Shown here one piece after another: positions 6,385 to 30,744 of a DNA stretch of 64,000 nucleotides (the stretch's first letter is position 1; each line of letters begins with the position of its first letter). Origin of the DNA: Hericium rajendrae (taxonomy: Eukaryota; Basidiomycota; Agaricomycetes; Russulales; Hericiaceae); the NCBI GenBank assembly GCA_033439255.1, contig CM065889.1, positions 1,054,001 to 1,118,000 of the forward strand, read 5' to 3'. The notes below the pieces were generated by a model, which saw nothing but the letters and a program-made list of their open reading frames with translations, was not told the origin of the DNA and made no database searches. The translations under genes were made by a program, and so were the position numbers.

Positions 6385-6460
6385 GGGAGTACTGCTCGAT
6401 ATCGAACAGTGCTCCCCAGTTAGCTCGATAAACAGAGAAATAACAGAGTTAGTAACTTAC
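6385..6460 (-). repeat. Intron-hairpin unit 1 (element I)
   Basis: On the minus strand: donor GTAAGT at 6460, branch-like GAGCTAAC, then the hairpin at 6385-6416 with arms around GGGAGTACTGCTCG. The implied 3' splice site is the AG at the hairpin base. One arm has a mismatch (AACAGTGCTC). Confidence 0.75.
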
Positions 6461-6827
6461 CTAGGAACACTCTCAACTTCCTTCCACTTTCGAACCTCCT
6501 CTCCGGCCTCCAAGTTGTGCGAAATTCGAGCACAAGAACGAGCCTTTACGGCTCGTTCTAGTTGGTGAACTGGACTCAGGGCTGCAACGTGGACTACGAG
6601 ATCGCGCCGATCGTGGCTCGTTCTCGCAGTCCTTGGGCTTGATCCGAAGTTGCTAGTGCGCCGGAATGTGCATGAGGCTCGAGGGCCGTGCCTGGCCTAC
6701 ATGCAACCCATAGGATGAGTGCGGGTCCGTGTGGGCCGTGTACGAAACGGCGGGGTGCGCGCGAGCAGGGCGGAGGGTGTGGTAGACACAGGGGATGGGG
6801 CGCGGGAGAGGCAATGGAGGGGAGAAT

Positions 6828-6909
6828 GGGGAGGATTGCTCATTAACGAGCAATGCTCCCCCAATTAGCATACATGATAGATAATAAGATGGACTTTATC
6901 TTCACTCAC
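6828..6909 (-). repeat. Intron-hairpin unit 2 (element I)
   Basis: Donor GTGAGTGAA at 6909 on the minus strand, branch-like ATGCTAAT, then a hairpin at 6828-6862 with arms near ATTGCTC and GAGCAAT. Confidence 0.75.
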
Positions 6910-6977
6910 CTTGGTATCTATCAAGCCCCTCCGCTTTTCGAAACGTCCATCCGGGCTTGTGTGTCGAGAGAGCCCAA

Positions 6978-7052
6978 GAGTACTGCTCGTTATCGAGCAG
7001 TACTTCCCGCGTTAGCACGATAAACACGAAAATACGAGTTATATTTACTTAC
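6978..7052 (-). repeat. Intron-hairpin unit 3 (element I)
   Basis: Donor GTAAGTAAA at 7052 on the minus strand, branch-like GTGCTAAC, hairpin 6978-7004 with perfect arms GTACTGCTCG / CGAGCAGTAC and a 4-nt loop. Confidence 0.8.
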
Positions 7053-7185
7053 CTTCGAGCCTTATCAGACCCCGGCCAGTGTCGAAACGTCCTTCAAGCC
7101 TTGAAATCGTCAGAAACGAGGAATGAAGGGGTAGGAAGAGATAACGAGCCTAGACGAGCACGACTTCAACGTACAAACGCGTTCG

Positions 7186-7255
7186 TTGGCAACCACCGGC
7201 CCGGTCGGCAATTCCCGACCGGCAATGTCCGGCAACGCGCGTCGACTTGTAACAT
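7186..7255. repeat. Central CCGGTCGGCAA palindromic block of element I
   Basis: The block holds CCACCGGCCCGGTCGG followed by an inverted copy CCCGACCGGCAA, forming a GC-rich stem-loop. Element J has the matching block at about 30200-30240 at the same position, between its minus- and plus-strand hairpin arrays. It may be the shared divergent promoter or an origin-like centre (inference). Confidence 0.6.
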
Positions 7256-7377
7256 GTCAATATGTTGAACTTCGTCCTCCCATTCTCTGTTGTCCCACTC
7301 GTCCTCCATGTCCTCTTCCTCTCTTTCTCTCAAAGCACGCCCCGAACGGACTCAGTGAGGCTTTCAGGGTATTAAGG

Positions 7378-7452
7378 GTGAGCAAAAACATATTCATTCT
7401 CATTACTGCATACTAACAAAGAGAGTATCGCTCGATATTGAGCGATACTCTC
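7378..7452 (+). repeat. Intron-hairpin unit 4 (element I)
   Basis: Plus strand: donor GTGAGC at 7378, branch site CATACTAAC near 7410, then AAAGAG and a hairpin at 7421-7452 with arms AGTATCGCTC / GAGCGATACT. The implied intron is about 46 nt. Confidence 0.8.
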
Positions 7453-7730
7453 TGCTCTCTGTTCTCTGCCCACCCACGCTACCCCCGGTCATCCTGTTTG
7501 CTGCCGCTGCCATCCCGTGCCCCCGCCGGTTCTCTCACATCTCCGCTGGCTCTCTCGCACCCTCACCAGTTCTCCCGCATCCCTGCCATGTCACCAGGGT
7601 ACCAACGTGGTGCGCGTGGCCTCGGCAGTTCCACCATGCATCTCAATGTCCCGCATCTGCATGCCAGCAAGGCCAGCATGTCTCATGCCTAATAACACGT
7701 TGCACAGAGGGCTTCTTAGGTATCTCAGAT

Positions 7731-7804
7731 GAGTGGACCTCGTTCAAGTTGGTTGTTCTCGCGTACTAACAAAGAGAACATCGCTCATGATACGAGCGAT
7801 GTCT
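7731..7804 (+). repeat. Intron-hairpin unit 5 (element I), donor decayed
   Basis: The branch site GTACTAAC and AAAGAG are followed by a hairpin at 7774-7804 with arms CATCGCTC / GAGCGATG. The expected donor reads ATGAGT near 7731, one base from GTGAGT. A further donor CAG/GTGAGT with a branch-like CACTAAG follows at 7870-7915 without a hairpin. Confidence 0.65.
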
Positions 7805-8479
7805 TCTATCTCCTTCCCTATGCTCTCCGTACCCTGTTACCTCACTTGGAATGGTGTGTAGTCTTGCAGGTGAGTAAAAAGAACTGTTTATTTGCTCCTT
7901 TCGTACACTAAGTGACGTTTCTCCACTTCTTCCTGTCCGATCTTCCGCGTCACCTTGATCCTGCGTGCTCACCCTGGACTCCGCTCAATGCCAGGCCCCT
8001 GTAAGCTGCAGTCGACACCATGCGCAGTGCCTTTCACATCACCCGACTAGCCTCTCAACTGCCTACATCTTCCCCTCTACCCGTGCATGCCATCGAGAGC
8101 ATGTGCATGTGCATGGGCTAGCAATAACAAATGAACAATTGTGGCAGTGTGTATAGCTGCGAAAGGTATGGTTCTCATCTTTTTAGTTCTTCTGACTGTG
8201 TGCAGGCTGTGGGGCATGAACTGCTTGGGTGTTACAAGTGTTTCGTGTCCCACAGCTACGTGTCTCGTGCCTCTTTGTAGCTATAGTGCCACATATACTT
8301 TAAGGCCCAAAATGCATGTGTTTCCGGTCCTGTAGAGGTACATACAGTTGTATTGATATTAATATCTTCTCTCTACCTGTGTTTCATGTGGTATATCTGG
8401 TGCTTTAGTTGTACTATGCTTTTGACTACAGTAGCTCTACTTTATTGACTGATATACTTCTAATGTCTTAATGTAATCT

Positions 8480-9270
8480 AGACCCAAATCTAAGGTTTTA
8501 TCTAACTTGATTTCATTGTGATCTGACTTGCATGGTGTGAGGCTGTATGAACTGGATGTGTCTGAAAAATAAGTCTGCTTCTGAAATTAGACATAATATC
8601 TGAAATATGAATGTTCGGCCTGATTTTGAGCTGAAAGCTCTTTTGAATATTCTGAAAGTAGAACTGAGTTTTTCTGATTGAAGTCTGATTGACTGATTTG
8701 TGTCTAAGTAAGAGATGCAATAAGACTTGAAGGGTTCTGATAAGTCTGATGTTGTCTGATATTTTTCTGATACTGTCTGATTTTTATCTTGTAAGACTCT
8801 GATATGTCTGATTGATCTGATGCACTTAAATCAAGTTAGATCCCAATGCAAACTCTGATTCTGATGACTTTTAGACATCAGAACAAAGTTTAGTCACTCC
8901 AAACATTCTCTTATAATGTCTAACAATGTCTGACAATATCAGAAAATGTCTGAAGGCATCAGACAATGGCTGAAGTCCTCAGATAATGTCTGAAGTTGTC
9001 AGGCAAAGTCTAATGTTATCAGATATTTTCTGATGCTGCTAGACAATGTCTGATAGTATCAGAGATTCTCTAATAATATCAGAAAATGTCTGTAGTTATC
9101 AGATTTTTTTCTGATATCAGACAATTTTTTTCTGAAGTGGTCTGAAGTGGTCTGAAAATTAAGGACCTACATGATTTGTCTGATTGTCTGATAGTAACAA
9201 TCAAGCAAAATTAGACAAAGTTAGACTATTCACAGACAATTTACAGACAAATCAGAAAATTTGAGGGTTA
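8480..9270. repeat. Right subterminal TCAGA/GTCTGA-repeat domain of element I
   Basis: The sequence is dominated by TCTGA, GTCTGAT and TCAGACAA words in both orientations, mirroring the left domain. It ends at the CTGATG terminus (9271-9276), after which gag of A resumes. Confidence 0.8.
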
Positions 9271-9276
9271 CTGATG

Positions 9277-10113
9277 CCGGGGAAGGGACATGTTGAGAGC
9301 GCATGACAGCCCTTCTTCTTCGAATTGAAGGAGATCGTTAGGAAGGGAAAACACTTGATGCACAGGTTCGCCAGCTTCGAGACGTTCTCGTTCGTTTGCT
9401 GTTAGGCTGGCATGGAACCTCGGGGTATTTACGTATTTTGAGATTCATTCTTGCGGGGTTAAACCCGTCCCAGCATCAGAAAGAAGTCCTGGGGCAGTAG
9501 ATACTGGCGACGAAGGGTACGTGCTTTCTTGAAAGGCGCGAATATATTTGAAGAAGAACTTCTCTGCATCGAGGAGACGAGATCCTAACACTCACCAGGC
9601 CCACGCGATGTTGTGTAGACTGGGTGAACCCCTCAGGGTTTGTACGAACAGGGCTTTGCGATCGATTATGAAAGGTTCATGTCCCTCGACTATGCCTTTG
9701 ACCGTTAAGACTTCAAAGGTGCGGTTAACCATGAGTTGCATCTCGAGAATGAGTAGTCGAACATTTTCCAAGAGATCAGGGTGAAGTTGATAACGAGGCC
9801 TCCCGCTCTCAATGCCATTGTCTATGATGCCATCGGGGCTCAGTGTAGTACCGGCGATGCTTCGCATTCGATCAGCCAAAGCGGCCAGTCCAGCGTGAGG
9901 TTGGTGATATTGCCTAGTGAGACTGGCTATCCTTTGCGATGGGGACGTATCGAGGGAGCGCGAGTTGTTGTTCCACTCATGTCGACTTGTGGATCGAGAG
10001 CTGCCAACAAGCTGAGGAGTGCTGGAGGCATTGGGCAGAACATCGAATCCCGATGATAAAGTGGATGAAGTAGGGTGCGATGAGGGCGTGACGTTCCTCG
10101 ATGTGGATGCCAT
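9277..10113 (-). pseudogene. Gag N-terminal region of element A
   Basis: An ATG at 10113 opens a frame of 173 codons down to 9592. The central part (GRPRYQLHPDLLENVRLLI) resembles the B gag N-terminus (GSPRFQLSFTEASVLHTLA) at 33.3 kb and the G gag at 63.5 kb. Beyond 9592 homology continues in another frame to 9277, so there is at least one frameshift or an unrecognised intron before element I cuts the gene. The start is 56 bp downstream of the LTR end, as in B (69 bp). Confidence 0.75.
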
Positions 10114-10168
10114 GTTGAGGACGTACTAGTCGGCCGAATGATAGTGGAGTTCTGGATGTATCCACCTC

Positions 10169-10737
10169 TGTAACGGATGATGGGAGTCATGCTACAACCG
10201 GAGGTTCACTATCGAGGGTCGGCGGGCGAGTACGGTGCAGAGGTGTCGAAGACCTCCTAGGGTGCAGGCTAGAGCGTCGTCGAGGATTCCTCGATGACAG
10301 AAACAAGGGTGGTCGACCTTCGAGAGGACCATGTGTGAGGATTCCTCGTACACGGTCGTCGAGAAAGTGAGAGGAAAGAGGAGGCGAGCGATACTCGCCA
10401 CGTCGAATCTGAAAGCTGGAGCTTACCTAAGTGGAACGTCAATTGCACCTTTGCGTCGCCGAAGGCGAGAAAGGCGGGGCGCTCGACTGATCGAGCTGTC
10501 GACATCACACGAGGGAGAGAGCAAGAAATAAAGAGAAAGCAAGAAACGAGATAATAGTCAAGAGTGAGTTAGATACATGAGAGCGCACAACTTATATACA
10601 TTTTCCTCCTCTCACTTATCCTGCTCGGGTACCTCCCAGCCCGAGCCTGCTGACTCGTGTGCATCATCTGATCTCGCCCCGGTCAGTCCGTGCTAGCGCA
10701 TCTTGAGGCTCCTTCCTTATATGGACCGTCCATCACA
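10169..10737 (-). mobile_element. 5' LTR of element A (569 bp)
   Basis: On the minus strand the block reads TGTGATGGA to TCCGTTACA, imperfect inverted ends of an LTR. Directly after it comes GAGGTGGATACATCCAG, the leader motif shared with B, G and H. The length matches the B LTR (575 bp). It is inserted into the gag leader of element H. The matching target duplication would be left of the window. Confidence 0.82.
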
Positions 10738-11176
10738 GTGTGCACGGCTTGAGATCGTAAAGATATATTTGCAGGCCCGGGGATCGTGAATTGTTCGTAA
10801 ATTATGTGAGATCATTCTATGGAGGAGTCTGAAGGAGAAAGGGCCTCAGAGGTATTCTGCGTGGCCGTCAACGAAGCAGCATTGGAACCCAAAGCTGCTT
10901 GCGAAGAGGATCGGGTGTCGGGCTGGACAATAATGGGGATAGGCTTCCTCGGTTGAGGAGAGCGAATGGTAGAGTCTTCCGCAGACTGTTGTGCTTTCGT
11001 GGGGAACGATTGTGAGGCAGAGGCTCGAGAGGCCAACATATCAGTAAGAGGGGATCCGAGGTTGGCGAGATCGAGCGAGGGACGAGCAGGTGAAATAAGG
11101 CCTGATGTCCTCAGCCGAGGAGCTAATCCTCTTCCTTCGCCAGCCAGGGTGAACTACTTTCTGGATGTATTCACTT
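10738..11176 (-). pseudogene. Leader and gag stub of element H
   Basis: On the minus strand the segment begins with AAGTGAATACATCCAG right after the H LTR, a variant of the leader motif. Short Ser/Ala/Pro-rich frames follow (11041-11235 partly within the LTR, 10812-11039) that look like the disordered N-terminal gag of this lineage. The segment is cut off by the LTR of A. Nothing catalytic is present. Confidence 0.6.
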
Positions 11177-11684
11177 TGTGACACTCCTACGGAGGCCACG
11201 AAACCGGTACGTAGTCTAAGGTAGCTGGCAGACAAGGAGAGGAAGGAAGTTGTAGGTCGGCCCTGGAAGGCACCTCAGAGAGCGAAGCTCAGCCTCTACG
11301 AGCGATGCGCAGGAGCGATCCTACCCGGCTCTTGGGGAACGGGGAGGGAGCAAACCTCCCTCCGGAAGATAAGAGCTGGGGAGGAGCATTGCATCTCGAA
11401 CCGTGACGCGAGTCGTTCCGTTCCTAGAGTCGATAGAAACTGTTAGTAGGCAAGAGAGAGAGAGAAATGTACAAGAGAGGAAACAGAGAAAGAGATGAGA
11501 GATAGAGAAAAAGAAAAGAGAAAAAGAGATGAAAGGAAACTTGATTGTAATGGTTAGACAAGAGGTACAAGACGAGTGCTGGCACTCGTTTCTAGTGTTT
11601 GTATGTTACGTAAGTACTTCCTATTTCAGCTTTCTTTGTCTTGAGGCTAAATCCCTCCTTCCCTCATTGTACAGGTGCGTCACA
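11177..11684 (-). mobile_element. LTR of element H (508 bp)
   Basis: The ends are TGTGAC and GTCACA in inverted orientation, and the leader motif lies on the left side, so this is the 5' LTR of a minus-strand gypsy element distinct from A. It contains an A/G-rich stretch near 11450-11530. The remainder of H is not in the window to the left of A as far as can be seen. Confidence 0.75.
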
Positions 11685-12789
11685 ATCATAGTCATATGCT
11701 CATTGCTTTCAGGCATGACAAGATTTTTAAATCTGAAAATTCTGAAAGAAAACTTTAAGCATACAAAAACATCTGAGAAAGTCCAAATTTATATAGCTAC
11801 CAGCCATAACTACCTAAGCTATATGAACTATATACAAGCCTTATACAGATATATAGATCTATAGTAGCTATATAGATTATATAGCCCTATATGCTATCTA
11901 TGTATGCTATAGAGCTACTCAGCAAAGCTATGGGAGCTATAAACATGTCTCTATGTGCTATAAAGCCTATGTAACCTATGTCAACTATATTACCTTGTAA
12001 GTGTAAGCTATATGCTATGACATCTGTGAGATATACAGCAACTATACACATTATGCAAAGTATACATACGATATAAATCACACTTAGATACAAGTCGAAT
12101 CCATTTGAATTATCTTCATCATAACTAAATACAAAGCTACAAAAAAATCTAACTAAAACTTGACGAGTGCCAGCGCTGGCATGGAATTAAGTGCCATCAA
12201 GCGCCGGCACCTGTGAGGTGCGCAGAGGGTGTGGAGATGGTGCATGAATGGCCGTGCATAGGCGTGTGCCACGTGCGGGGTGGGGCAGATCGCACGATGG
12301 CAGGGATCGTGCGCGAGGGTGGGGCGTGTCGCGCGTGTGCAGAGTGGCACGCGAGACCGGGGTGTTGGACATGGATACGGGGTGTTCGGCATGGACGCAG
12401 GGCGTTGAGCTGCGTGCGTGACACGTTGAGCGTGAGGGCGCATGTGGGGCGTGGCGCAGGCGGGTGACGTGTTTCGTGCACGGGAGTGTTAGGGGTGGAT
12501 GCAGAGCATCGCGCGCACGTTGCCATGAGAACGGGGCCGTGCGCGTGCGTGGACGGGCATCCAAGCGGGCACGCAATGTGTTGATTGGGCGTGCAGGGCA
12601 TTGTGCGGGTGCGAGGGCATCGAGGACCCTCGCGGGGCATTGGCCACGTGAAGGGGATGTTCTGCATGCGCGCAGGCCTTGAGCGAGCATGCAAGGTCCT
12701 CTACACGCGTGCAGGGCATCAAGCAGGCATGGGGGTGCTGTGCGCCCGTGGGCGGTGGTGAGGTATGTGGACAGCATGCTGGGCGTTGT

Positions 12790-12930
12790 CATGGTGCACA
12801 GGTTTTGAACAGGCGTGCGGGGCCTTGAACGGGCACGCGGGACCTGGAAGGGGCGTGTGGGGTGTTGAATGGGCGTGCGAGGTGTTGAACACGCACGCGG
12901 AATGTTGATCGAGCGCGCAGGGATGGGGCG
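12790..12930. repeat. Minisatellite in K1, about 20-bp unit
   Basis: Tandem imperfect units of the form TTGAACGGGCGTGCGGGG. The K2 copy keeps the same array at about 16140-16380 with the CpGs changed to TpG or CpA. Confidence 0.75.
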
Positions 12931-13210
12931 ATGACGTGGCCCCCGCGCACGTCGTTGACGGCACTCAGACGGTACGCAGACAGCGTGCGTGGGGTGCGAG
13001 TGTGTAATCTGTGACCTTGCGCACATTGGTGTGCGCAGAAGGCAAAGCGGGGGCGTGGCCGTCGTTCGGGGCTGCGGCCAGGTCTCGTGGTGTGCTGGAG
13101 TCCGCACGGGGTGTGGGAGCTGTGTGAGGCACGGACGTCGCATAGACGGAGCGCGGAAAGTGCGATGGAGATCCGGGGGGTCGTGAAGGGCTGAGGGAGG
13201 AAATACATCG

Positions 13211-13285
13211 AGAGTATCGCTCAAAAAATGAGCGATACTCTCTTTGTTAGTGCAGAAACTAAAAAGATAAGTTTGTTTTGCTTAC
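13211..13285 (-). repeat. Intron-hairpin unit 6 (element K1)
   Basis: Minus strand: donor GTAAGC at 13285, branch CTGCACTAAC, AAAGAG, then hairpin 13211-13242 with arms AGTATCGCTC / GAGCGATACT and an A-rich loop. Confidence 0.8.
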
Positions 13286-13677
13286 CTGATTCCTCTCTGC
13301 CTGCTACTTTAGCCTCTAGCCTTCAAGATTGAGGGCGACGGGGTGAACAAGGGAGGAGACAGGTGAGGGAGTGAAGGAGAGACAAAGAATCAGAGTGAGA
13401 GGGATAAATAATTATGGAAGTCAACGCGCGTTCAGTGCTTCAGCCACCGAACGAGCGACGTTGTGTTGTTCGAGCCTCAACAAACCAAATAAAATCGTAT
13501 AAATTCAGAAAAAAAGACAGAAATGATAGATTATACATTTAATTAGAATACATGAGAATACTTTGGATATACTGCACCGTGAATCTCTGAGCGACACCAT
13601 CAACTTACTCAGGTCTGCCAGCCAGTCCCTCTCGGCAGCGCCCGGCAGCCATGATTCTCGGCTTCGCCTGGGATTCA

Positions 13678-13686
13678 TATATAAGG
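13678..13686 (+). promoter_or_regulatory. TATA-type core promoter of K1 rightward transcript
   Basis: TATATAAGG is followed by CTCGCGCGACGCGCC and a pyrimidine-rich tract, and preceded by CCGGCAGCCAT. Equivalent modules occur in L (26108) and, inverted, in N (23107), so this block is conserved between elements. Confidence 0.65.
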
Positions 13687-13849
13687 CTCGCGCGACGCGC
13701 CTTCCCTCTTGCTCTTTAACCCCCACTATCCCATGCCACGTTGACGCCGTCGACGTCGTCGTTTGCTCGCTCATCGTCGTTTGCTTTGTCGTCGTCGTTC
13801 CTCCCTCTGTCGTCATCATTTCTTCCTCGTCGTTGTAATCTTTATAAGG

Positions 13850-14110
13850 TAAGCTTTTATTCTTTGTCTCTTATTTCTTATACTAATGTCTTCATATCTG
13901 TTATAGTACCTTTGTATACTTACTAGGTAAGCTGTGTTATGTCTTATACTGATGACTTCATGTTGTCTCTAGTAGATTTTCGCTTTTTTATTCTTTTGGT
14001 AAGCTATCTGTTATCTTTGGTATCTTCTGATATTACTATTGTCTTTTATTTTAATTAGATTTTCACTTTTTGTAGTCATTGTAAGTCTGTTTGTAGTCTT
14101 TTATATTAGT
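13850..14110 (+). repeat. Chain of short exon-intron units downstream of the K1 promoter
   Basis: Successive GTAAGC/GTAAGT donors and TAG acceptors bracket short, similar pieces such as ATTTTCGCTTTTT and ATTTTCACTTTTTG. L (26215-26400) and N (22920-23040, inverted) show the same organisation. There is no open reading frame, so any product would be a non-coding RNA (inference). Confidence 0.5.
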
Positions 14111-14730
14111 CTTAACTGATGCTTATATTTTTATAGAAGTTGTCTTCATGTCTATCTTACATAATGTAGTGTAGTAATGTATCATGATGTTGTAGTTAGT
14201 AAATAAAACTTTGATTTTGTGCTTAACTCTTGTTATGATGAATCTAATTGTGTTGTGCTATAATAAAGCTTTATGTCCTAGTTAAGCTACAAATTTATAT
14301 GATAAATGTATAATTTATAGATAGTACATAGTGAGCTAGTATAGTATAGACAAGGCAAGCTTTATAATTTACAGATAATACATAGTGAGTCAGCATAGTA
14401 TACCTAATATAGACTTTGTAGTCTTTGTAGTAGAATTAGACTACATAGCTCTCATAGCTAAGCCTATAGCTCTATAGCTATCATAGCTACCCTTGTAGCT
14501 CTATAGCTATCATAGCACTCTATAGCAGTCCTTAATAGCTATATAGCACTATATAGACTAGGGCTCTCTATGGCCAGATATATACAAAAGAGGATAGCTA
14601 TGGAGCTATGCAACTTATATAAGATATAAAGCTCTCTATAGCTACCCAAAATTTCTCAGATGAATAGGCTCACAGATCTCTTGTGATTTTTGGTTTGAGC
14701 TTACAATTGTAATAGTATAATATACTCCTT

Positions 14731-14875
<145 letters not shown>

Positions 14876-14879
14876 TTCT

Positions 14880-14975
14880 GATTGACCTGCAGTGTCTCAT
14901 TAGGAAGGTTGACAATTTTCTGATTGACCTGACAGTTTTTAACCCTACTGACAGCTCCTGATTGATCTGATCCAC
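14880..14975 (+). repeat. Single-arm fragment related to foldback element M
   Basis: The sequence repeats the left arm of M (18721-18800), including GAAGGTTGACAA, TTTCTGATTGACCTGACA and CTACTGACAGCTCCTGATTG. The terminus reads CATTAG instead of CATCAG. The opposite arm is missing. Confidence 0.75.
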
Positions 14976-15076
14976 TTGTAATGGGACATCAAAAGTCTGG
15001 ACCAGCTGAACCACAGGATACATCAACTATTTGAGGAAGGAGTCTTCACTAAGCATCTGGAAAGTCACAAGGCAGA

Positions 15077-16565
15077 CATCTGAGAAAGTTCAAATTTATA
15101 TAGCTATCAGCTACAACTATCTAAGCTTTATGAGCTATATACAAGTCTTATACAGATATATAGATCTATAGTAACTATACAGACTACATAGCCCTATATG
15201 TTATCTATGTATGCTATATAGCTACTCAGCATAGCTATAGGAGCTATAAACATGTCTCTATGTGCTATAGAGCCTATGTAACCTATGTCAACTATATCAC
15301 CTTGTAAGTGTAAGCCATATGCTATGACATCATTACAAAGTTACAAAAAAAATCTAATTATAACTATGAATGAGCACCAGTGCTGGCATGAAATTAAGCA
15401 CCATCAACATCAGGAAACTCCTCACTTTCCTGACTTCACTGTTTTGAGCCTGATGTCACTGTTTTGAACCTGATGTCACTGTTTTTGGACTGTTTTCAGG
15501 TCATTTTCAGACACATAGGTCTGAAATCAGTCTAAAAACAGTAACATCAGGTCCAAAACAGTGACATCAGGCTCAGAACAGTGAAGTCAGGAAAGTGAGG
15601 AGTTTCCTGATGAAGCATCAGTGCCTGTTGAGCATGCAAAGGGCATGAAGATGGCACATAAATGGCTGTGCATAGGCACATGCATGTGCAGAGTGGGGCA
15701 GATCATATGAGGATGGGGATTGTGTGTGAGAGTGGAACGTGTCATGTGCATGCAGGGTGACAGGCAAGACCAGGGTGATATGAGGCATTCTGCACAGATG
15801 GAGGACATTAAGCTGCATGCACGGGACATTGAGCTGCTTGCATGGGACATTGAGCTGCATGCATGGGATGTTAAGCACAAGGGCACTCGTGGGATGTGGT
15901 GCAGGCAAGCAAGGTGTTTCATGCACACAGGGGGTTAGGGTGTGATTGCAGGCCATTGTGCCACGTACATTGCCATGAGAATGAGGCCATGCATGTGCAT
16001 GAATGGACATCTGTGTGAGCATGTGAGGTGTTGATTGGGCATGTGGGGCATTGTGTGGGTGCTATGCTAGCATGCAGTGTTGAGGGCATGTGCAGGGCAG
16101 TAAGGGACATGGACATGCGTGCTGGACATTGTCGTGGCATGTGAGGTGTTGAGCAGGCATGTAAGGCCTTGGCTGGGCACGTGGAGTCTTGAACGGGTGC
16201 ACAGGGCATTGAATGGGCACACAAGGCATTGAATGGGTGCATGGAGCATTGAACAGGTGTATGGGGCATTGAATGGGCACGTGGGATGTTGAACGGGCAT
16301 GCAAGGCTTTGGATGGGTGGGTAAGGCCTTGAACAGGCACATAGGGTGTTGAATATGCACATGGTCGAGCACATGGGGATGGGGCAATGACATGGCCTGT
16401 GTATGCACATCATTGACAGCATGCAGACAGTACACAAATGACATGCATGGGGCAGCAGTGCATATTCTGTGATCCTGCACACATTGGTGTGTACAAAAGG
16501 CAGAGCAGGGGCAAGAGGGTCATTTAGGGCTGTGGCTGGGCATCATAGCATGTTGGAGCTACATG
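15077..16565 (+). mobile_element. Element K2: CpG-depleted, right-truncated copy of K1
   Basis: The left terminus CATCTGAGAAAG and the following 1.2 kb match K1 11770-13160 with insertion O (15408-15612) removed. Most differences are CpG in K1 and TpG or CpA in K2, for example near 15370 against 12165 and throughout the GC-rich block. The copy ends before the hairpin unit and promoter module, so those parts are lost. It is an older or more heavily mutated copy. Confidence 0.82.
15408..15612. mobile_element. Element O: 205-bp foldback MITE
   Basis: The two halves are nearly perfect reverse complements. The ends are CATCAGGAAACTCC and its complement, and the AA on both sides is single in the undisrupted K1 sequence, showing a 2-bp target duplication. 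Internally each arm carries a repeated phrase, TGATGTCACTGTTTT. The ends match those of the large CATCAG elements, so it may be moved by the same transposase (inference). Confidence 0.88.
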
Positions 16566-17400: not shown

Positions 17401-17500
17401 GACTACCCCACATCAATCGTGCTTGCCAACTCTACATCGATCCCGTTAGTATCAGCTACTATAGCACGATTCGGATATCTTGTCTTATCATGCCATTCTC

Positions 17501-20720: not shown

Positions 20721-22052
20721 ATGGTCCAGCAAGTCCCTCCTGCCCAGAGCTCTGTGCAAGGCACTTCTGTTCATACTGCCACAGCTGGCAATGCTGCCGG
20801 TGCAGATCGCTTAGGACGGGTTGCAAGTGCAACCACAGTGTCCCGCCGTCCTCCTCCTCCAACTGTGGAGACCGTCAGTGAGTTGATTTGGACCATTGTT
20901 TGCCATTATGCACCACTTATTTGCAGTCACAGAGGATGAAGATGATGACATATACTTGGCATTCTATGACCCCAATTTTGATCTGTACGAGACCGACGAC
21001 GACAATGTACCTATCAACCCTCCAGCCCAGCACTCGGCTGCCCCTCTGCCTCCTTCACCTCTTCCGGGCTCTACTCCCATTCAGCAATGCATGCAGGTCC
21101 CCCAGTCCCACCAGCAGCCTGTGGATCCTTTGTCAATCGTGCCTGATCCTATCTCTGCTCTGGGCCAAGAGGAAGATGACAGAATTTATGTCGTTACTCA
21201 CGGTAGATGGATGGGACTCTTTAGAGGCTGGTAAGTACCTTTACTATGCCAATTATCACATTATATTCACACGTTTCTAGGCATCGCTGCACACCTCTCA
21301 TTAATTGCTTCTCTTGTGCTGTATTCCAGCATTACCCTACTGTCCAGCTGGTGGAGGATGCTTGGCAGGAACATCTCCGCATGCTTGACAAGGCTGAGTG
21401 CCTTGCCGCTGAGGAGGCTCATCACCAGAATGCACCTGACACACAGCTTGCAGACTTCTTGAGCAACCTCAGCATTGCTGACCTGCCTGTTGTTGCCAGT
21501 GGCACTCCTGCCTCCGTCTTGCCCATCTCCACACCACGTCTTTGTCGAGAGCCTCTGCCTCTGTATACACCCAGGCAGTCTGCTCGTAGTCACCCTCTGG
21601 GTAACCAAGGCTATGTGACCCCTTCCACCAGCTCGTCCTCCTCCTCTGGCATGTCTGTGAGCACGATGCCCCCCACGTCACCCTACGCTCCCTATCCTGG
21701 TGGTGGCTACAGCACCATCACCATGTTGGTCACCATCGCTGGGCCATCTGGCTCATCACATGCTACTGTCATAAGTCCACACCCTTCTCTTGTCATTTGG
21801 TCGAGTAATGGACAAACGAGCAGAACTACGACCAAAATGCCAGGTCTGAGGGCAAGCCTCGCAGGTGATACACCATGGCCAGAGGTAGGCACTGTGGGAT
21901 CTTCAGGTCCTGGGATGACGTTGTGCCTCTCGTCCACAGATACCTCAATGCCAGACAAAAGTCCTTCTGCACCCTTGCTGAGGCTCAGACTTGGCTCGAC
22001 ACCCACTGAACAATGGCTCCAGGGATGGGACTCATTGTTATCATGTATCTGA
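20721..22052 (+). CDS. Protein with viroplasmin/RNase H1 N-terminal-like domain, three exons
   Basis: The start is the ATG in CACCATGG at 20721. Exons are 20721-20877, 20927-21230 and 21281-22052; both introns (49 and 50 nt) have GTGAGT or GTAAGT donors and CAG/TAG acceptors, and phases agree, giving about 410 residues. Residues about 146-185 read RIYVVTHGRWMGLFRGW, then a PLINCFSCAVFQHYPT block and EDAW. This is the pattern of the viroplasmin domain found at the N-terminus of RNase H1, which binds RNA/DNA hybrids. No RNase H catalytic domain follows; the C-terminal 200 residues are Ser/Pro/Thr-rich. Agaric genomes hold many such single-domain proteins, often in repeats. The function is unknown. 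The far C-terminus may be frame-shifted. Confidence 0.6.
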
Positions 22053-22499
22053 AGGACTATCTGACCAGTTATATTGCATCCCTTGTCTGTTTTTCCCTGG
22101 TCACAGTGGCCAGTGATCTATGTGATCTTTCTTGTATGCTATACTTGTTACTTGTACTTGTCTGCATGTTCGTCCATAGTTGCCATGTCTGTGCTCATGC
22201 TCATGCTCATGCTAAACATTTGTTGTCTTGCTAAGTAATACTAGTTGCAAATAAAGTGTCTCACCTCCTGATCAACTTATTGTGTGTTTGACTCTCTCTG
22301 AACTAAAGCTGTATATTTGAGGAATAAATCATGTGACCATCTGTGAGACAATAGTGAAAGTTGACCGAAAACCCCACAGAATGCTCTGTATTGCAATGCA
22401 AAAACTTCTATAAAGTACAAGAATATTTGTGGATATTCTATACTGCTGCTCCCACTGTTCTACAAAGTTTTGTTGTGTCTAACACTGCCTTTTCATGTT
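22053..22499 (+). other. 3' flank of the viroplasmin-domain gene
   Basis: Includes a short GCTCATGCTCATGCTCATGC repeat (22194-22213) and an AATAAAG polyadenylation-like signal near 22250. There is no further gene before element N starts at 22500. Confidence 0.5.
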
Positions 22500-23100
22500 C
22501 ATCTGAGAAATTTAACAGTGGTATATAGCACTATGTAGCCTATATAGCTCTGATAGGGCCATAGCAGTCTCCTTTTCTACATAGCCCCTCATAGCAGCAA
22601 GGCAATCTATATAGGGCTATCATAAGCTATCATAGCTATCATAGGGTAAGGCAGTAACTATCATAGCTATCATAGTCATCTATTATAAAACAATAGCTAT
22701 CATAGCTGCTATAGTATATGGTGATTATCATAGCTATATTAGCTATGTGATTTATCTACAAAATAAAATAAAACTAAAAGATAAGATAAGATATAAACAT
22801 AAGATAAGAGATAAACATAAGAGATAAGATAAGACTGACTTCAAAGATAAGAAAAAAAGCGAAAATAATCTACAAGTCAACAAATGAGTATACAAGATAA
22901 AGATATAGATAAAAACATAAGACTTACCTAAGGATATAAAAGCGAAAATGCTAAGGCCACAAATAACATAAGGATAGAGACAATAAAACAATATACCAAC
23001 TTACCAAACATAAGAAAGTTAAAGCAAAAGAGGGAGAGATGACGAAAGACGAGAGATGGTAGTGGTAAGGAAGAGAGAGGGAAAGCGAGTCGTGCACACC

Positions 23101-23107
23101 TTATATA
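23101..23107 (-). promoter_or_regulatory. TATA-type core promoter of N
   Basis: TATATAA on the minus strand, followed by GGTGTGCACGACTCGC and a pyrimidine-rich tract, matching the K1 and L modules. CCGGCAGTGCCCGGGC lies about 50 bp upstream. Confidence 0.6.
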
Positions 23108-23701
23108 GATGTGGCGAGTGGAGCGCCAAATATGGGTGATGCAACTCGGCCCGGGCACTGCCGGATGCTGCATCAGAGGCTAAGGCGGCAGATTTTCTTA
23201 AGTTCGTATCACTGCCCGGTGACCTGTAGTACAGTAGCTAGGTATTTAGCTCATTCAGTCATATTGTATTGATGGATTGTATCTACTGTCGTTTTTCTAC
23301 ATTTTCTCCTATTTTATTTGATTTACTAACCTCGAAACATTCGAACTCGCATGCATTTGGTGGCTGAGCCACCGAAACGCGCGTCGAAGTTCCAATGTTC
23401 AACTCGTCTCCCACCACCACTCCCCTCCCTCTTCTCCCCTCCCTCCCTCCGTCCCCTCCCATCAATCCGAACACCGAACATCAGCAAACCTTTCCAGTTA
23501 CTTGTTGACCTTGTTTGCCTTTTTTTCATCTGGTCTGTCTGGTTTGTGTCTGGTTTGTCTGGTTTTAACAATTTCAGACAAAACCAGACAAAACCAGATG
23601 CAAACCAGACAAGCCAGATGAAAAAAAGGCAAACAAGGTCAACAAGTAACTGGAAAGGTTTGCTGATGAAGGAGGGTATTCAGGTGACGAGGGCCACTAA
23701 G

Positions 23702-23775
23702 GTGAGTAAAAAAAACCTCTCGTTCTGTCTATTCATGCTAACGTAGAGAGTACCGCTCGTTCGAGTGGTACTCTC
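23702..23775 (+). repeat. Intron-hairpin unit 7 (element N)
   Basis: Donor GTGAGTAAA at 23702, branch CATGCTAAC, AGAG, hairpin 23746-23775 with arms GAGAGTACCGCTCG / CGAGTGGTACTCTC. The second arm has a G:U-type difference. Confidence 0.8.
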
Positions 23776-25623
23776 GACCTCCTCTCTCCTGTGCCTCTCC
23801 CTGCCCCCTTCCGCCATCGCCTTGCCATCGCCTCCCACCTCCCCGTCTCCTCGCCGTCGCCTTCTGTCGCCTCCTCATCGCTCAGCGTCGCCGTCGCCTC
23901 CCCATCACTCAGCACCGCCGTCACGCCTGCAGTGGCTGGCGTACCGTCTCTCAATGCCCACGCCCACGTGCGCCAGTGCATGCAGCCCACCGGACAATGC
24001 CCACGCTCGCCCGTTGCCTCGCGCATGGGCTATACCGCTTGCATATGGCCTCGCGAACCCATGCACGGCGCTGCTGCATGGTGCGTGGGCCAGCATCAGA
24101 AAAATGTGAAATCTACATAGCCTGGTGTCAAATTATGTGGTCTATCATATGACTATGTGGTCTACATAGTCCCCTCCTCAGATATATAGAGCTATGATAG
24201 ACATCATACTTTCCATAGCAGTAGGCACAAGATATATAGCACTATGTAGTCATGAGGGGTAGCTATGGTTGCTATATAACCTCCTAAGCATGCTATGGAA
24301 GCTATGTGCCCTATGACTGGACAGATAGACACCCAAGACATCAAGCTTAAATTTATTATATAACAGACAAGAGCACAGGCCAAGTTGTTCAAGGTTACTT
24401 TATTGATAGTGTCAATGTAGCTACAGCAGTCACTAGCTATGGTAGATATAACCTAAGTCCCGGCCACCAATAATGCCGGCAAGGCAACGCGCGAGGAAGG
24501 CACTGCAGGCGCGAAAGGCACGGGAGGCGCCATTGACATAGGTGCGGCCGAGGTGTGCGGGATGGTACAGCGGTGCGGGTGTTGCTAGGGATGCACGCGC
24601 GTTGTCAGAGCGGGGCGCGGGACGTCAGGGCGGAGTGTGGGATGTCGAGGCTGGGCCTGGGATGTCAAGGCGGCAGGCGGACACCATTGCGCGGAGGCCG
24701 TGCGCAGGTCGCACACGAGGCCCATGGGCCTGTGCGAGACGGCGCAGCCGTGCGCAACCGCAAGGCCGTGCGCAAAGCCTGTGGGTCACAAACAATGCGC
24801 GCGGGCGGTGCGCGAGACGGCCGGACCACGGGCAGGCGTGTGCGGAAGGCCAGAGCCGTGCGCAAGGTGAAGAATCTTGTGCGAGGCGTACAGGGCGTGC
24901 ACGGGGTGTCGGAGGCGTGGACACGTGTGCTGCGGCCGTGGATACGTGCGCTGCGGCCGTACGTCGGCCGTTGGGTCCATGCGGGGCGGACTGGGACTCT
25001 ACACGCTGTACGCGCGCGTGTCTGGGGATGTACATGCATCCCATGGCCGTACGCTGGCGCTGCGGTGCGGGGAGGCGTGTGTTGGCTTGCGTGCGCAAGC
25101 AGCCGGTGTTGATGGGGCCGTGCGCGTGAGTTCGTGCGCTGGCACTGGCGTGCGCGTCGTCGAGTCTCGTTGCCACGGCAACGAGACTCGATGTTAATCT
25201 TGCTGGCCATCCACAAGGCGTCGGCAGGCTCTTGAGGCCGCGCGTGTGTCGCGTGTGTGTGCTGGGAGCGCCCACGCGTAGGTGTTGAGAGTGACCGGGC
25301 GTGATGTTGGCCGAGCGCGAGCCAGTGGGAAGCTCCCCACCCGTTGTCGCAGACATGTGCGCGGAATGGGGCCCATTGATACCGTGCGTGGGTGACGTGC
25401 CAGGATGCAAGCACCCACGGGCTGCGGCAAACGGGCAGGGGGTCATGGGGACGTCGTGGAGTGATGTGTCGGCGGCGCGGGAGTGGGCTGTCGAGTACGT
25501 GGCATGCGCTGTCGAAGGCGCGGGCGCGGGGAGGGAGACAGGCGCGGGCGGTGCGCGACAGGCGGAGTGGGCTGTCGAAGGGCGAGCAGGGGGGCGGGGA
25601 GTGTCGAAGAGCATGTAAGAACA

Positions 25624-25699
25624 AGAGTCTCGCTCGTTATCGAGCGAGACTCTCAAGATTAGTACGATATAAAAAGAATACAAGTGTTTTTTTACTCAC
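25624..25699 (-). repeat. Intron-hairpin unit 8 (element L)
   Basis: Minus strand: donor GTGAGTAAA at 25699, branch GTACTAAT, then hairpin 25624-25653 with perfect arms AGAGTCTCGCTCG / CGAGCGAGACTCT around a 4-nt loop. Confidence 0.85.
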
Positions 25700-26107
25700 C
25701 TAAGTCCCTCGACCTATGCCCAATCTATCCGGCCTTCATGTTGACGCGGGTGATGAGGAATAACGACAGAGACAAGCTGAGAGGAAGGGGAATGATGACT
25801 TGGAGTTCGAGACGAAGTCCGAGTCAAACGACGCGCCGTTCGGTGGTTCAGCCACCAAACGTGCGCGAGTTCGAATGTCTTCGAACTTACTAAAGCAGGT
25901 AAAATCGCAACAATTCCGGGAAAATGAGAGTAGATAGCGTTTGATAATATAATTCGATTGAATGAGGTACATCTCTAACTAAAGTACTGCAAGCTACTGG
26001 GCAGCGAAGCACACTTACTGAAATCTGGCACTTAGCCTCTGACGTGGTGCCCGGGCCGAGCACCGGCAGCCACATTTAGGGCTCCGCCGGGCAAACCCGC
26101 GCTCACC

Positions 26108-26114
26108 TATATAA
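26108..26114 (+). promoter_or_regulatory. TATA-type core promoter of L
   Basis: TATATAA followed by CCCTCGCACGATGCGC and CT-rich sequence, nearly the same as in K1. Confidence 0.65.
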
Positions 26115-28510
26115 CCCTCGCACGATGCGCGTTCTCTCTCTCTCTTCAACCACTACATTCTCCCTTCGCTCCGACTTTCCTCGGGTCTTTCCTCTCTACC
26201 TTCAGTAAGTCTTTCTTCTTTAGGTTTGCTGTCCTATGCTTATGTCATTCATATCTTAGGGTTGTTCATTTTCGCTTTTTAACATTTTCGCTTTTTAACA
26301 CTTCTAGTATGTCTTTATTCTTTTGTCACTGGGTTTGTTACTAATCAACCTTTTATTTTGTAGATTATTTTCGCTTTTTGTAATCTTTGTAAGTTTAGTA
26401 TACTTATCTTGTTTATCTTTTAGTAGTAAGTGTAGTGTCTTTATCTTTTTGTGATTAGTAGTAGTATGTTTGTTTGTAGTAGTATAATAATATGAATATA
26501 AATTTGATACATTAATCAAAGCTTATATTTGTGTGATCATTTTATTTGGACTTTGCTATATGAATTTGATTAAAATTTATAGTTTCAATAGGCTTTATTG
26601 CTTGAATAGATATGTCAGGTCTACATATTGAATATAGAATATGTAAGTGGCATAAGTCTCATAGCTTTGATAAATACTTATAGCTTTCATAGCTAGGCAT
26701 GCTATGGTAGCTGCATAGTCAGCTCTCATAGCTATGATAGCACTCCATAGCATCACCCTTGAGCTTCATAGCACTATATAGCATCCCCCTTTAGCTATGC
26801 TGGCTATAAAGAAAAGGGCAGTGCTATGGAACTATGAAATCTATGTAGACTTCATAGAGCTATGTAGCACTTGCAGATTTTTCTGATGAGGCGTGCCGCA
26901 CGTGGCCCGTCTCGCAGACGAGCCCACGGATTGCATGCAACCCGGCCGTGCTGCGTGCGGCCTCACCAACGGATGGCCGGAGCCTCGCGCGGGCATGCCA
27001 GCCAGCACACGCATGCACACACATCGTGCATGGCCATGCACAGGCCCGCCGCCTTGCCGTGTCCCGCTACTCCCCACCACACCTCGTGCATCAGGAAATG
27101 AGGAATCTTCTGACTAGTCTGATTGTCTGACTTTTGTCTGAGAGTTCTGAACAGGTCCATTTGTCTGACTCACATATGAATAAAATAGTGTGTAGATTAT
27201 TTTGTAAAATCAGAAGAATATCAGATATAAGCAGACCTATCAGATTCTTAAAAATCTGTCAGATGAAGGTAATTTTGTCAGACATTGAATAAAAGTCAGA
27301 TTATTGCTACTTTTCAGATAGAGTCAGGTAGGTCTCTATCATCCAGATGTTTTCAGACATGTCAGATTCTTGAACATCTGTCAGATGAAGGTTATCTTGT
27401 CAGACATTGAATAAAAGTCAGATCATTGCTACTTTTCAGATGAAGTCAGGTAGGTCTCTATCGTCCAGATGTTCTCAGACATGTCAGATTCTTGAACATC
27501 TGTCAGATGAAGGTCATCTTGTCAGACATTCAATAAAAGTCAGATCATTGCTACTTTTCAGATGGAGTCAGGTAGGTCTCTATTGTCCAGATATCTTCAG
27601 ACATATCAGATTCTTACACATCTATCAGACAATGATCATCTTGTCAGACATTCAATAAAAGTCAGATTATAGGTACTTTTCAGATGAAGTCAGGTAGATC
27701 TCTATTGTCCAGATGTTTTCAGACTTATCAGATTTTTACATATTTGTTAGAGAAAGGTAATTTTGTTAGATATCTATTAAAAGTCAGATCATTGGTACTT
27801 CTCAAATAAAGTCAGGTATGTCCCTATTGTCCAGATATTTTCAGACTTATCAGATTTTCAAACTTTTGTCAGATGTAGATAGGCCTATCAGATGCTGAAC
27901 AAAAATTAGACAATTGCTACTTTTTAGATAGAGTAAGATAGATCTCTATTATCCAAATAATTTAAGATGCATCAGACTTTCTGCACTTATTAGATATCAT
28001 TAATGTTGTTAGATAAGAAATGCTGCTCAGACACAATCAGATATGTCTCTATTATTCAGTGTACCTCAGACACTTCAGATGTTAATGTACTTATCAGACA
28101 TTAGTAATTTCATCAGATTCTAGATGCAAGTCAGACAAACACTATTTTTCAGATGAAGTCAGATAGATCTCCATTGAATCAAACTTAAACTTAGATTTAG
28201 GCCAAGGATTGGAATTAGATTGGACTTGATTTCAGACTAAGGGAGAGGTTCACAAGCTATAACCATCATGGCCACCACAAAACTTATACAAAACTCTAGA
28301 GCTAAATAATTACATAGGCACAGGGAGTCGTACAGGCCACACGCGAGGTGTGAACACTGCATCTGCCCGTGCGGGCCCATGCGAGTCTGTGTGCGAGATA
28401 GCGGAGGTCCGCGGGAGTTGGGCTGGGCATGAGGTGGAGGGAGATGCAGAGCATGGGGTGTGAGAGAGGCAGCATGCAGAGGTATGGGTGTTGAGGCAGA
28501 ATGAATAACG

Positions 28511-28586
28511 GGAAGTACTGCTCGTTATCGAGCAGTACTCCTGTCGTTAGTGCAGTGAACAGGAAAAATAACAGATCTTTACTTAC
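28511..28586 (-). repeat. Intron-hairpin unit 9 (element J)
   Basis: Donor GTAAGTAAA at 28586 (minus), branch GCACTAAC, hairpin 28511-28541 with perfect arms GTACTGCTCG / CGAGCAGTAC. Confidence 0.82.
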
Positions 28587-28830
28587 CTTTCTGTGCACGG
28601 CCTTGCAGTGCCCACGCGCGAAGTAACATGCGCAGCTACGGGCAAGTGTGGGTAGTGCGAGACCGTGCGGGGCCGTGTAGACAACAGCGAGGGCATGCGA
28701 GGCGTACGGGCATGGCGCAGAGGGCGCGGGAGAGGCGAGACATGCACGGGAGACGGGGCATGGGAGAAGCTGCATGCGATATGCAGAAGTCACGATGGAG
28801 AGGTGTGGTGGTTGATGCAGGACAGAAAAT

Positions 28831-28907
28831 GGGGAATACTGCTCGATTACGAGCAGTACTCCCCGAGTTAGTACCATAGGCAATATATAATCATTATCGT
28901 GACTCAC
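28831..28907 (-). repeat. Intron-hairpin unit 10 (element J)
   Basis: Donor GTGAGTCAC at 28907 (minus), branch GGTACTAAC, hairpin 28831-28864 with arms GGGGAGTACTGCTCG / CGAGCAGTATTCCCC. Confidence 0.82.
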
Positions 28908-29170
28908 CTTTGCCTCCAGCGAGCCCTTCGGGCTGTCCGTTCATTCCTTCAGCTTTCAATTTTGTGCAAAAGACGGCGGGGCCGTGCATGTCCGTTGCGC
29001 AGCCATCTGGTGTTGTGAGGGGTCATTCGCATCTGTGTTTGGTTGTGTGCGAGAAGGCGAAGGTGTGTGGGAGGTGTGGGGGTCGCGCTGGGCACGGGCG
29101 TGGAGGGAGAGGCAGAGGCGGAGCACACGCGGCATACAGGAGAGGGGTGCGGCAGATGAGGAAGGAACAG

Positions 29171-29248
29171 AGGGAGTACTGCTCGATCACGAGCAGTACT
29201 CCCTGAATTAGTACCATTGATAACATAATACTAGTCGGTTTGACTCAC
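29171..29248 (-). repeat. Intron-hairpin unit 11 (element J)
   Basis: Donor GTGAGTCAA at 29248 (minus), branch GGTACTAAT, hairpin 29171-29203 with perfect arms GGGAGTACTGCTCG / CGAGCAGTACTCCC. Confidence 0.82.
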
Positions 29249-29468
29249 CTTTGCCTCCAACAATCCCCATGAGCACTCCATTGGTCCTTTCGACTTTCAA
29301 TTCCATGCACAAAACGGCGGGGGCATCGGGCCATGCGGGATCGTGCGAGATCGTGCGGAGGGGCAAAGGCGGGGCATGCGTGGGGAATGGGGCACGGGAG
29401 AAGTGGTGTGCAGGCGCGGGGCACAAGAGTCGGGGTGGGGCTGTAGGTCTTGAGATAGAACACATAAT

Positions 29469-29545
29469 GGGGAGCACTGCTCAATAACGAGCAGTGCTCC
29501 CCCGAATTAGTATGATCAACAATAGAAGAATGAACGGATACTCAC
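29469..29545 (-). repeat. Intron-hairpin unit 12 (element J)
   Basis: Donor GTGAGTATC at 29545 (minus), branch CATACTAAT, hairpin 29469-29502 with arms GGAGCACTGCTC / GAGCAGTGCTCC. Both arms carry the same compensating C/G pair relative to other units. Confidence 0.82.
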
Positions 29546-29968
29546 CCGCGATTCCTCGAAGCCCCCTCCTCCCTTCAAACCCTCATCCCTCCCGATCTCC
29601 TCCGGCCTTCGAATCGATATAGAGTGGACGCGAAGTCGTACGTGCCGGTGCATCCGCGTGGGCTCGTGCCCATGCATGCAGGGTCTTGCGCGAGATGAGG
29701 AAGGCATGCGGGGTATGAGGCGGACCGTGCGGGGAGATGGGGTACGGGAGAGGCGGGGTGCAGGGCCATGCAGGCCATGCAGGTCGTGCGAGGTCGCGCA
29801 GGTCGTGCGAGGTCATGCGCGAGGCGACGGAGGCGTGCGGGGAGGAGATGGAGGCGTGCGGGAATCGAGGTGGAGGCGGAGCACGCACGGGGTACGGGGC
29901 AGCTTGCGGGGCATGGGGGCACGAGACACGCGACGGACGGGGTGGGGGGTTTGATGCAAACGAGAAAA

Positions 29969-30046
29969 GGAGAGTACTGCTCGTTATCGAGCAGTACTCC
30001 CCAAATTAGCACGATAGACAGAAGAATAACAAGAGATATTACTCAC
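29969..30046 (-). repeat. Intron-hairpin unit 13 (element J)
   Basis: Donor GTGAGTAAT at 30046 (minus), branch GTGCTAAT, hairpin 29969-30001 with arms AGTACTGCTCG / CGAGCAGTACT. Confidence 0.82.
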
Positions 30047-30416
30047 CTGATGCTGCTCTGGCCTCCATCAAGTCCCAACACTCTTTAAATCGTCCCTCCG
30101 GCCTTCAAATATCCAGAAACGAAGCGATATTGAGGTGAGCAGCAGCAAAATTCGACTTAGACGTGAATTCGACTTAGACGTGCAACACGCATCTGGCAGC
30201 CACCGGCCCGGTCGGCAATCTCCGACTGGCAATCTCCTCGGCGGCTCAAGCAATCAGCGCACATCGTTGTTTGTTTGCTCGTTCGTCTCCCTCTCTCCCT
30301 CTCTATCCGTCTCCCTTGCTCTCCGCCTCCTTTGCTCTCCGCCTCTCCGTCTTCCTATTCGTCAAACTGGAGGGAAGGACCGGTTCGAGCTTTTCTCCAG
30401 ACGTGGAGGTCTTTAG

Positions 30417-30498
30417 GTGAGTAAAGATATCTTTCTTCTATACTTCTTTGCTCTAACAAAATAACGAGAGTATCGCTCGATATCGAACGATACTCTCG
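30417..30498 (+). repeat. Intron-hairpin unit 14 (element J)
   Basis: Donor GTGAGTAAA at 30417, branch GCTCTAAC, hairpin 30465-30498 with arms CGAGAGTATCG / CGATACTCTCG. Confidence 0.8.
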
Positions 30499-30672
30499 AT
30501 GTTCATTTTCTTTCGACACCCTCATCTCACTTCCCCTCCTCGCACCCTGCCCGCACCCTCGACAGTGCTGCCCTAGCTCGTGTACATCCCCACTTCCGTG
30601 ACACGTCACCGCCGGGCTCCGCCAGCGCACGCATGCTGTATGATGCTGCCTGTGCCCGCGTGCGATCTTGCG

Positions 30673-30744
30673 GTGAGTAATACCTTCGTTCTTGTTGTTC
30701 ACATACTCAATATGAGAGTATCACTTGTTATCATCGAGTGATAC
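30673..30744 (+). repeat. Intron-hairpin unit 15 (element J)
   Basis: Donor GTGAGTAAT at 30673, a weaker branch (CATACTCAA), hairpin 30714-30744 with arms GTATCACT / AGTGATAC. The next donor at 30986 (branch ATACTAAC) has no hairpin. Confidence 0.72.

Follow-up and report, generated by a model that had tools for sequence, protein, structure and literature searches.

Hairpin-tailed small introns in protein-less transposon relatives of the fungus Hericium rajendrae

Introners and introner-like elements of fungi are repeated intron sequences on mobile DNA, and non-autonomous DNA transposons are usually viewed as being carried along passively, with nothing required but their ends. Stems between the branch site and the acceptor of yeast introns are reported to occlude cryptic acceptors (PMC12350175). 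Telomerase RNA 3′ ends are described in several fungi as products of first-step-only splicing, with the second step blocked by a long branch-to-acceptor distance together with a strong branch site, by hyperstable U6 pairing or by an AU donor (PMC4299874), and in Cryptococcus stalled spliceosomes are described as able to trigger small interfering RNAs (PMC6643885). PlavakaB transposons of the CMCT group are characterized by CATCA..TGATG termini and target duplications of 2 or 3 bp (PMC12730594). Here we analyse a 64,000-nt stretch of Hericium rajendrae (contig CM065889.1 of assembly GCA_033439255.1, positions 1,054,001 to 1,118,000; hereafter the window, numbered from its first letter), which carries repeated units made of a splice donor, a T-rich stretch, a branch site and a hairpin. 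The genome holds hundreds of these hairpin-tailed small introns, and those examined lie inside protein-less transposon relatives.

The units share with the yeast stems a position right after the branch site and the enclosure of AGs; those stems are described in yeast genes with a canonical acceptor (PMC12350175), whereas the units here are repeated, mobile and covarying, sit in noncoding elements and have no canonical near acceptor. With telomerase RNA they have in common a donor and a branch site in a noncoding RNA and, as we infer for the present case, a hindered second step, but the accessible text on telomerase RNA does not mention a hairpin among the blocks it describes (PMC4299874). Like introners they are repeated introns carried by mobile DNA (compare PMC8476143), but they are placed inside larger noncoding elements with ends of their own, where ends are seen; context was seen for a minority of about 475 genomic places, and introner-style insertion into protein genes was not searched for systematically. 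A preliminary description of the window had not recognized the module as a described one, and the open-access literature on introners, Plavaka, branch-point hairpins and transposon stem-loops turned up no description of it, most subscription papers falling outside that scope.

Anatomy, spacing and copy number of the units

All 15 hairpins claimed in the preliminary description are present, between positions 6383 and 30750 and on both strands. A donor (GTGAGT, GTAAGT, GTGAGC or GTAAGC) accompanies 14 of the 15, and CTAAC or CTAAT stands directly ahead of the stem in 14. In an alignment of 14 units the donor core is invariant and is followed in turn by a stretch rich in T, by the branch site and by a stem with as many as 15 pairs; loop length differs among units, and six folding windows around units gave z-scores of −2.1 to −9.0. 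A covariance model built from 14 units recovers its own 14 at 51–85 bits, as expected, and the left-out fifteenth at 36 bits. Scans of the window found no Rfam match at gathering score and no tRNA, and a known RNA family or tRNA was dropped as an explanation for that reason.

Spacing within the unit is close to fixed. The branch site follows the donor by 33–38 nt in 77 of 82 donor-bearing units tabulated, and in 79 of 89 nonredundant units exactly 10 nt separate the branch pentamer from the GAGTA of the stem, the sequence between them being variable (AAAGA, CAAGA, TTGGG, TCGGG and others). Control introns came from three actin-family genes of this genome, to which actin was aligned across splice junctions. 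In the actin gene itself, six of eight introns have 35–39 nt from donor to branch motif, and six of eight have 11–16 nt from branch motif to acceptor; in two, the sole branch motif found is 31 nt from the acceptor. Among the 14 introns of the two other genes, two have a candidate branch motif 7–8 nt before the acceptor. The front of the unit is an ordinary intron of the host fungus and its acceptor region is not, because the spacing matches that of actin introns and the first NAG and the position of the AG do not.

The genome searched, in 19 contigs, comprises 46.8 Mb. It holds 37 exact copies of the AGTACTGCTCG palindrome (control, 0) and 344 matches to a looser palindrome with up to three mismatches (backward control, 1). 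Searches for the branch site plus the 5′ arm, also with up to three mismatches, returned 394 places of the AGTATCGCTC type, with none in the control, and 82 of the AGTACTGCTC type, with one in the control. Stretches (L-numbers) were fetched from the first-listed places and are not a random sample; a complete unit including donor and 3′ arm was recognized by the covariance model at E < 1e-6 in 73 of 76 of them, in which only the donor and 3′ arm count as independent finds, since most stretches had been picked by branch site and 5′ arm. The three without such a unit are L059, L084 and L090; L100 and L107 are outside the 76. Near-duplicates were removed before counting, which reduced separate tallies from 56 to 53, 132 to 88, 133 to 89 and 123 to 92 units; units with unclear stems were left out (two from the first-NAG tally, n = 54, and one from the smaller G·U tally, n = 52), and identical rows were removed from the large covariation alignment, leaving 141 distinct rows.

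The units in the window, with covariance-model scores, are:
6383..6462, minus strand: unit with donor, T-rich stretch, CTAAC and hairpin, 70.8 bits
6827..6911, minus strand: unit, 71.2 bits
6974..7054, minus strand: unit, 74.1 bits
7376..7454, plus strand: unit, 76.8 bits
7727..7808, plus strand: degenerate unit with ATGAGT where the donor is expected, branch site and hairpin retained, 35.6 bits
13208..13287, minus strand: unit in element C (see below), 72.3 bits
23700..23777, plus strand: unit, 70 bits
25621..25701, minus strand: unit, 79.5 bits
28509..28588, minus strand: unit, 74.7 bits
28830..28909, minus strand: unit, 79 bits
29170..29250, minus strand: unit, 80.2 bits
29468..29547, minus strand: unit, 71.9 bits
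29968..30048, minus strand: unit, 85.3 bits
30415..30499, plus strand: unit, 71.8 bits
30671..30750, plus strand: weaker unit whose nearest branch-like motif is CTCAA, 51.4 bits
30984..31035, plus strand: donor and CTAAC but no hairpin, following the preceding unit on its arm, 18.4 bits

Covariation and RNA sense of the stem

Paired changes between the arms, which the preliminary description had taken as a sign of selection, are borne out by counting. In the window units, 94.3% of cells are paired, compared with 35–50% when one arm is slid; both sides have changed in 8 of 15 pairs, and the covariation score is 0.398 against 0.244 ± 0.022 for shuffled data, with none of 500 shuffles as high. 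In the 141 distinct rows, an alignment fitted to the model and so biased towards it, 92.9% of cells are paired (at most 58.8% when slid), double-changed cells number 211 against 91.6 ± 23.0 shuffled (0 of 500), and both sides have changed in 11 of 15 pairs. Copies that are ~17–28% divergent keep the stem at a mean identity of 0.90–0.95 in 25-nt bins, compared with 0.51–0.80 in adjoining bins.

A G·U pair on one strand corresponds to A·C on the opposite strand. With the stem register set by Watson–Crick pairs only, the non-Watson–Crick pairs of 88 nonredundant units comprise 30 G·U and 10 A·C (nominal p = 0.002), and those of an earlier set of 52 units 21 and 9 (nominal p = 0.04). These register-neutral counts replace an initial count of 45 G·U and 16 A·C, for which the scoring had favoured G·U. 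The excess of G·U over A·C suggests that it is the sense RNA, and not a DNA palindrome, on which selection acts. The proposal of a selected structure, linked to splicing signals and repeated on both strands in mobile DNA, is therefore supported.

The acceptor region and its interpretation

Half of the 54 units scored (27) have GAG as the first NAG past the branch site; the others have AAG (16), CAG (9) or TAG (2). The acceptors of the 22 control introns are YAG in 18 cases, AAG in 4 and GAG in none, and the contrast in GAG (Fisher p = 9e-6) compares used acceptors in the controls with first NAGs in the units, two measures that are not quite alike. The AG common to both main types of unit is part of the stem and stands 9 nt from the branch A, compared with the 11–16 nt of most actin introns. 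This position and the frequent GAG both speak against the AG at the hairpin base as the 3′ splice site, which the preliminary description had implied. Beyond the stem, 5 of 92 units have a YAG within 20 nt (19.8 ± 4.0 expected under a first-order model) and 17 have one within 50 nt (44.2 ± 4.7 expected); T makes up 42% of the first 15 nt. The intron looks as if it continues beyond the hairpin, and from this T-rich, AG-depleted tract we read the stem as hiding the near AGs and thereby displacing or disabling the acceptor. In the family of element C, a CAG ~105 nt past the stem (L016 numbering) is kept in nine of nine aligned rows (alignment A3), but it stands amid other short invariant runs and was not accepted as a conserved distal YAG.

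We tentatively favour a displaced acceptor hidden behind the stem, a reading to which we give a little less than an even chance. The units would be introns in noncoding RNAs whose transcription starts at central promoters, in part divergent, and runs outward. Their front would be that of a normal fungal intron (donor, ~36 nt, branch site), and the acceptor region would be replaced by a stem of 13–15 bp that starts ~5 nt past the branch A and locks the AGs closest to the branch site. The spliceosome would start the reaction and then seek a distal AG beyond the T-rich, AG-poor tract, and with the acceptor displaced, splicing would be slow or regulated. Use of the distal acceptor is predicted here from sequence features. 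Several observations weigh against this account. Compared with per-unit shuffles, the AG depletion is only moderate (53 units: mean fraction 0.29, 30% below 0.1), a few units do have a YAG within 20 nt of the stem, and the first YAG in alignment A3, ~60–90 nt downstream, is retained in only seven of nine rows. In tandem units the next donor is sometimes ~60–98 nt past the stem, leaving scant room for an exon behind a distal acceptor. The controls are themselves imperfect: candidate branch motifs 7–8 nt from the acceptor in two introns make a distance of 9 nt possible, two of eight actin introns and several of the other 14 lack a recognizable branch motif where one is usually found, and assignment is less sure in the two other genes, with weak flank support for some of their introns. 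At least two of the 82 AGTACTGCTC-type places (start CGAAAACGGGG) resemble readings of the hairpin from the antisense strand, and the p values overstate independence, the units sharing ancestry.

That a strong donor and branch site lack a usable acceptor close by, and that the AG common to both main types is enclosed in the stem, could also mean that the stem blocks exon joining altogether, so that the donor cut frees exon 1 as a short RNA or the stall feeds RNA interference. First-step-only processing and silencing by stalled spliceosomes are both described in fungi (PMC4299874, PMC6643885), but the blocks given in the accessible account of the former are features of sequence or distance, with no hairpin (PMC4299874). 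Successive units within one element would be needless for a simple 3′-end signal, and the AG-poor, T-rich tract past the stem resembles a continuing intron; we judge this alternative, the main rival to the displaced acceptor, unlikely. Less probable still is the model of the preliminary description, in which the AG of the 5′ arm is the acceptor and every exon opens with the stem-loop. The arm GAG hardly varies and mostly stands 9 nt from the branch A, and the next donor, 60–98 nt past the stem in some tandem units, would give short exons; against this, GAG ends none of the 22 control introns, the AG is paired inside a stem (folding z-scores as above), and its distance from the branch A is below that of the six actin introns with the usual branch site.

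The two remaining alternatives leave splicing aside. The palindrome is near-perfect at the DNA level too and might be a protein site, for example for a dimeric protein, that fell within introns by chance; such a site would not predict the excess of G·U over A·C seen in both sets, and the variable loop length and the coupling of the palindrome's register and orientation to the branch site make it very improbable. Recent transposon copying with no selection on the stem would account for certain copies that are 99.6–99.7% identical, but the stem is retained in the ~17–28% divergent copies and double changes stand above the shuffled and slid controls, and we find this explanation scarcely credible.

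Whatever its exact action, a covarying RNA structure is kept at a fixed branch-site distance in hundreds of copies, and RNA processing therefore seems important to the spread of the elements; this suggests that these mobile elements carry a selected RNA device acting on splicing. A bolder version, which we consider distinctly unlikely, is a transposon lineage whose hairpin-locked introns use the spliceosome for something other than joining exons (a donor cut that yields short RNAs, or stalled transcripts), to the benefit of the element through RNA stability, nuclear retention or the evasion or diversion of silencing. If true, it would place a selected RNA device within protein-less transposons. 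The units provide a testable way of connecting splicing and RNA structure with the fitness or silencing of fungal transposons, and their naturally occurring stem variants form a series in which to study how branch-adjacent structure controls the acceptor.

Near some hairpins, TTGCAG or TTCGCAG is followed immediately by GTGAGT (window ~7868, L011 ~5490, L014 ~7120); these may be zero-length exons or recursive splice sites.

Carrier elements and neighbouring features

The hairpins had been assigned to unrelated-looking elements and likened to a free mobile intron–exon cassette. Neither view is supported: the carriers appear to be related families of one transposon type, and the mobile unit, where ends are seen, is the whole inverted-terminus element, with tandem multiplication of the intron unit inside some elements at ~140–165 bp spacing (L011, L015). 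Module-bearing elements are noncoding, 2.8–4.7 kb long and bounded by CATCA or CATCT inverted termini. In the window they are:
4540..9275, no strand assigned: element A (CATCAGGAAG...TTACTGATG), three units leftward and two rightward (divergent)
11770..14662, minus strand: element C (CATCTGAG...CTCAGATG), target duplication AA
22500..26891, no strand assigned: composite with a CATCTGAG terminus at 22500 and CTGATG near 26889, no target duplication
25160..25191, minus strand: second hairpin (TCGAGTCTCGTTG/CAACGAGACTCGA) downstream of a unit
27090..31761, no strand assigned: element B (CATCAGGAAATG...TTTACTGATG), seven units in two divergent arms, no matching target duplication

The composite is probably two related elements tail to tail, with a putative inner boundary. 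A copy on contig C5 (L022:696-5433), which has the duplication CA, shares 99.7% identity with element A, and this family ends in CATCAGGAA...TTACTGATG. In family C, similarity among copies starts and stops at the CATCTGAG...CTCAGATG termini, 2.8–3.2 kb apart, and a 2-bp target duplication flanks seven of eight two-ended copies, the eighth (L016) having one end altered. Identical 2-bp flanks occur at 8 of 12 module-bearing copies (L005, L012, L013, L017, L021, L024, L022 and window 11770-14662); a matching duplication is absent at window 4540, window 27090 and the composite at window 22500, and the changed end of L016 accounts for the twelfth.

Families A and B have the CATCA..TGATG termini of PlavakaB, and the 2-bp duplications also agree with that group. 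At least 132 Plavaka profile matches occur in the genome, and Plavaka-bearing stretches share subterminal repeats with the module-bearing elements. One 10.9-kb Plavaka-bearing copy (C4j 1148-12081, L029 and L020 joined) has CATCAGCAAAA...TTTTGCTGATG ends and the duplication TG and interrupts a module-bearing element, of which L019 is the uninterrupted copy. A unit scan of this copy, the sole Plavaka copy with both ends seen, found none, and the module was accordingly rejected as part of the transposase gene. In C11j all four units lie outside the CTGATG terminus at 6064, and the CATCAG terminus at C13j 3474 likewise leaves the unit of L031 outside; the Plavaka stretches of C13 and C4b gave one scan match each, judged unrelated by eye. 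From the termini, the target duplications and the abundance of Plavaka, the module-bearing elements are apparently non-autonomous relatives of PlavakaB DNA transposons. They differ from PlavakaB in that no transposase was recognized in them, in the CATCT and not CATCA termini of family C, and in their putative central noncoding transcription units and hairpin introns, absent from the C4j copy. CTRR is the end motif of Helitrons; a Helitron 3′ end was set aside, as CTAAC precedes the hairpin and no CTRR end was noticed after it, no systematic test having been made.

Elements A and B carry tandem repeats (122-bp and related, TCAGA-rich) close to their ends, at window 4750-5632 and 27100-28174, which resemble repeats in stretches beside Plavaka genes.

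Units on both arms of families A and B face outward from the middle, and the promoters and transcripts of the elements are predicted from sequence. When seven copies of family C are compared in 25-nt bins, mean identity reaches 0.90–0.98, against 0.5–0.8 over much of the remainder, in a micro-exon-like block of the putative leftward transcript, a central GC-rich block, the hairpin with the next 20 nt, and one bin near the right end. Gaps of 7, 11, 10 and 4 nt separate copies immediately past the stem, and the downstream part is therefore noncoding. Coding exons were considered, as open frames run through the hairpins in some copies, but these gaps break the frame, and overlapping frames in several registers point to base composition.

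A second conserved hairpin, around CGTTGCCGTGGCAACG, lies ~300 nt past the unit in eight of nine rows of alignment A3 (L012 is without it; L016 ~3845-3870). Consensus folding over 460 nt gave little support beyond the unit hairpin and this one near +300, with double changes in 9 of 69 predicted pairs and a covariation term of +0.87. Short ATTTTCGCTTTTT blocks flanked by TAG and GTAAGT, at L016:4735-4905 in the leftward transcript predicted for element C and at window 26200-26420, resemble conserved micro-exons of a leftward noncoding transcript, and one 25-nt bin there reaches 98% mean identity across seven copies. In L038:3000-4400, the hairpin is followed by C-rich tandem repeats (GCCTCCCGCGCGCTCGT-like) that extend over more than 1 kb, and the left arm is apparently the mirror case. 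Elsewhere in the window, a perfect 17-bp hairpin, CAGAAACCAGATTGCCA/TGGCAATCTGGTTTCTG, at 41375-41412 is unlike the module, and 46344-48465 and 59537-61658 are inverted copies of a 2.1-kb repeat that are 98% complementary and contain tandem repeats rich in G or C.

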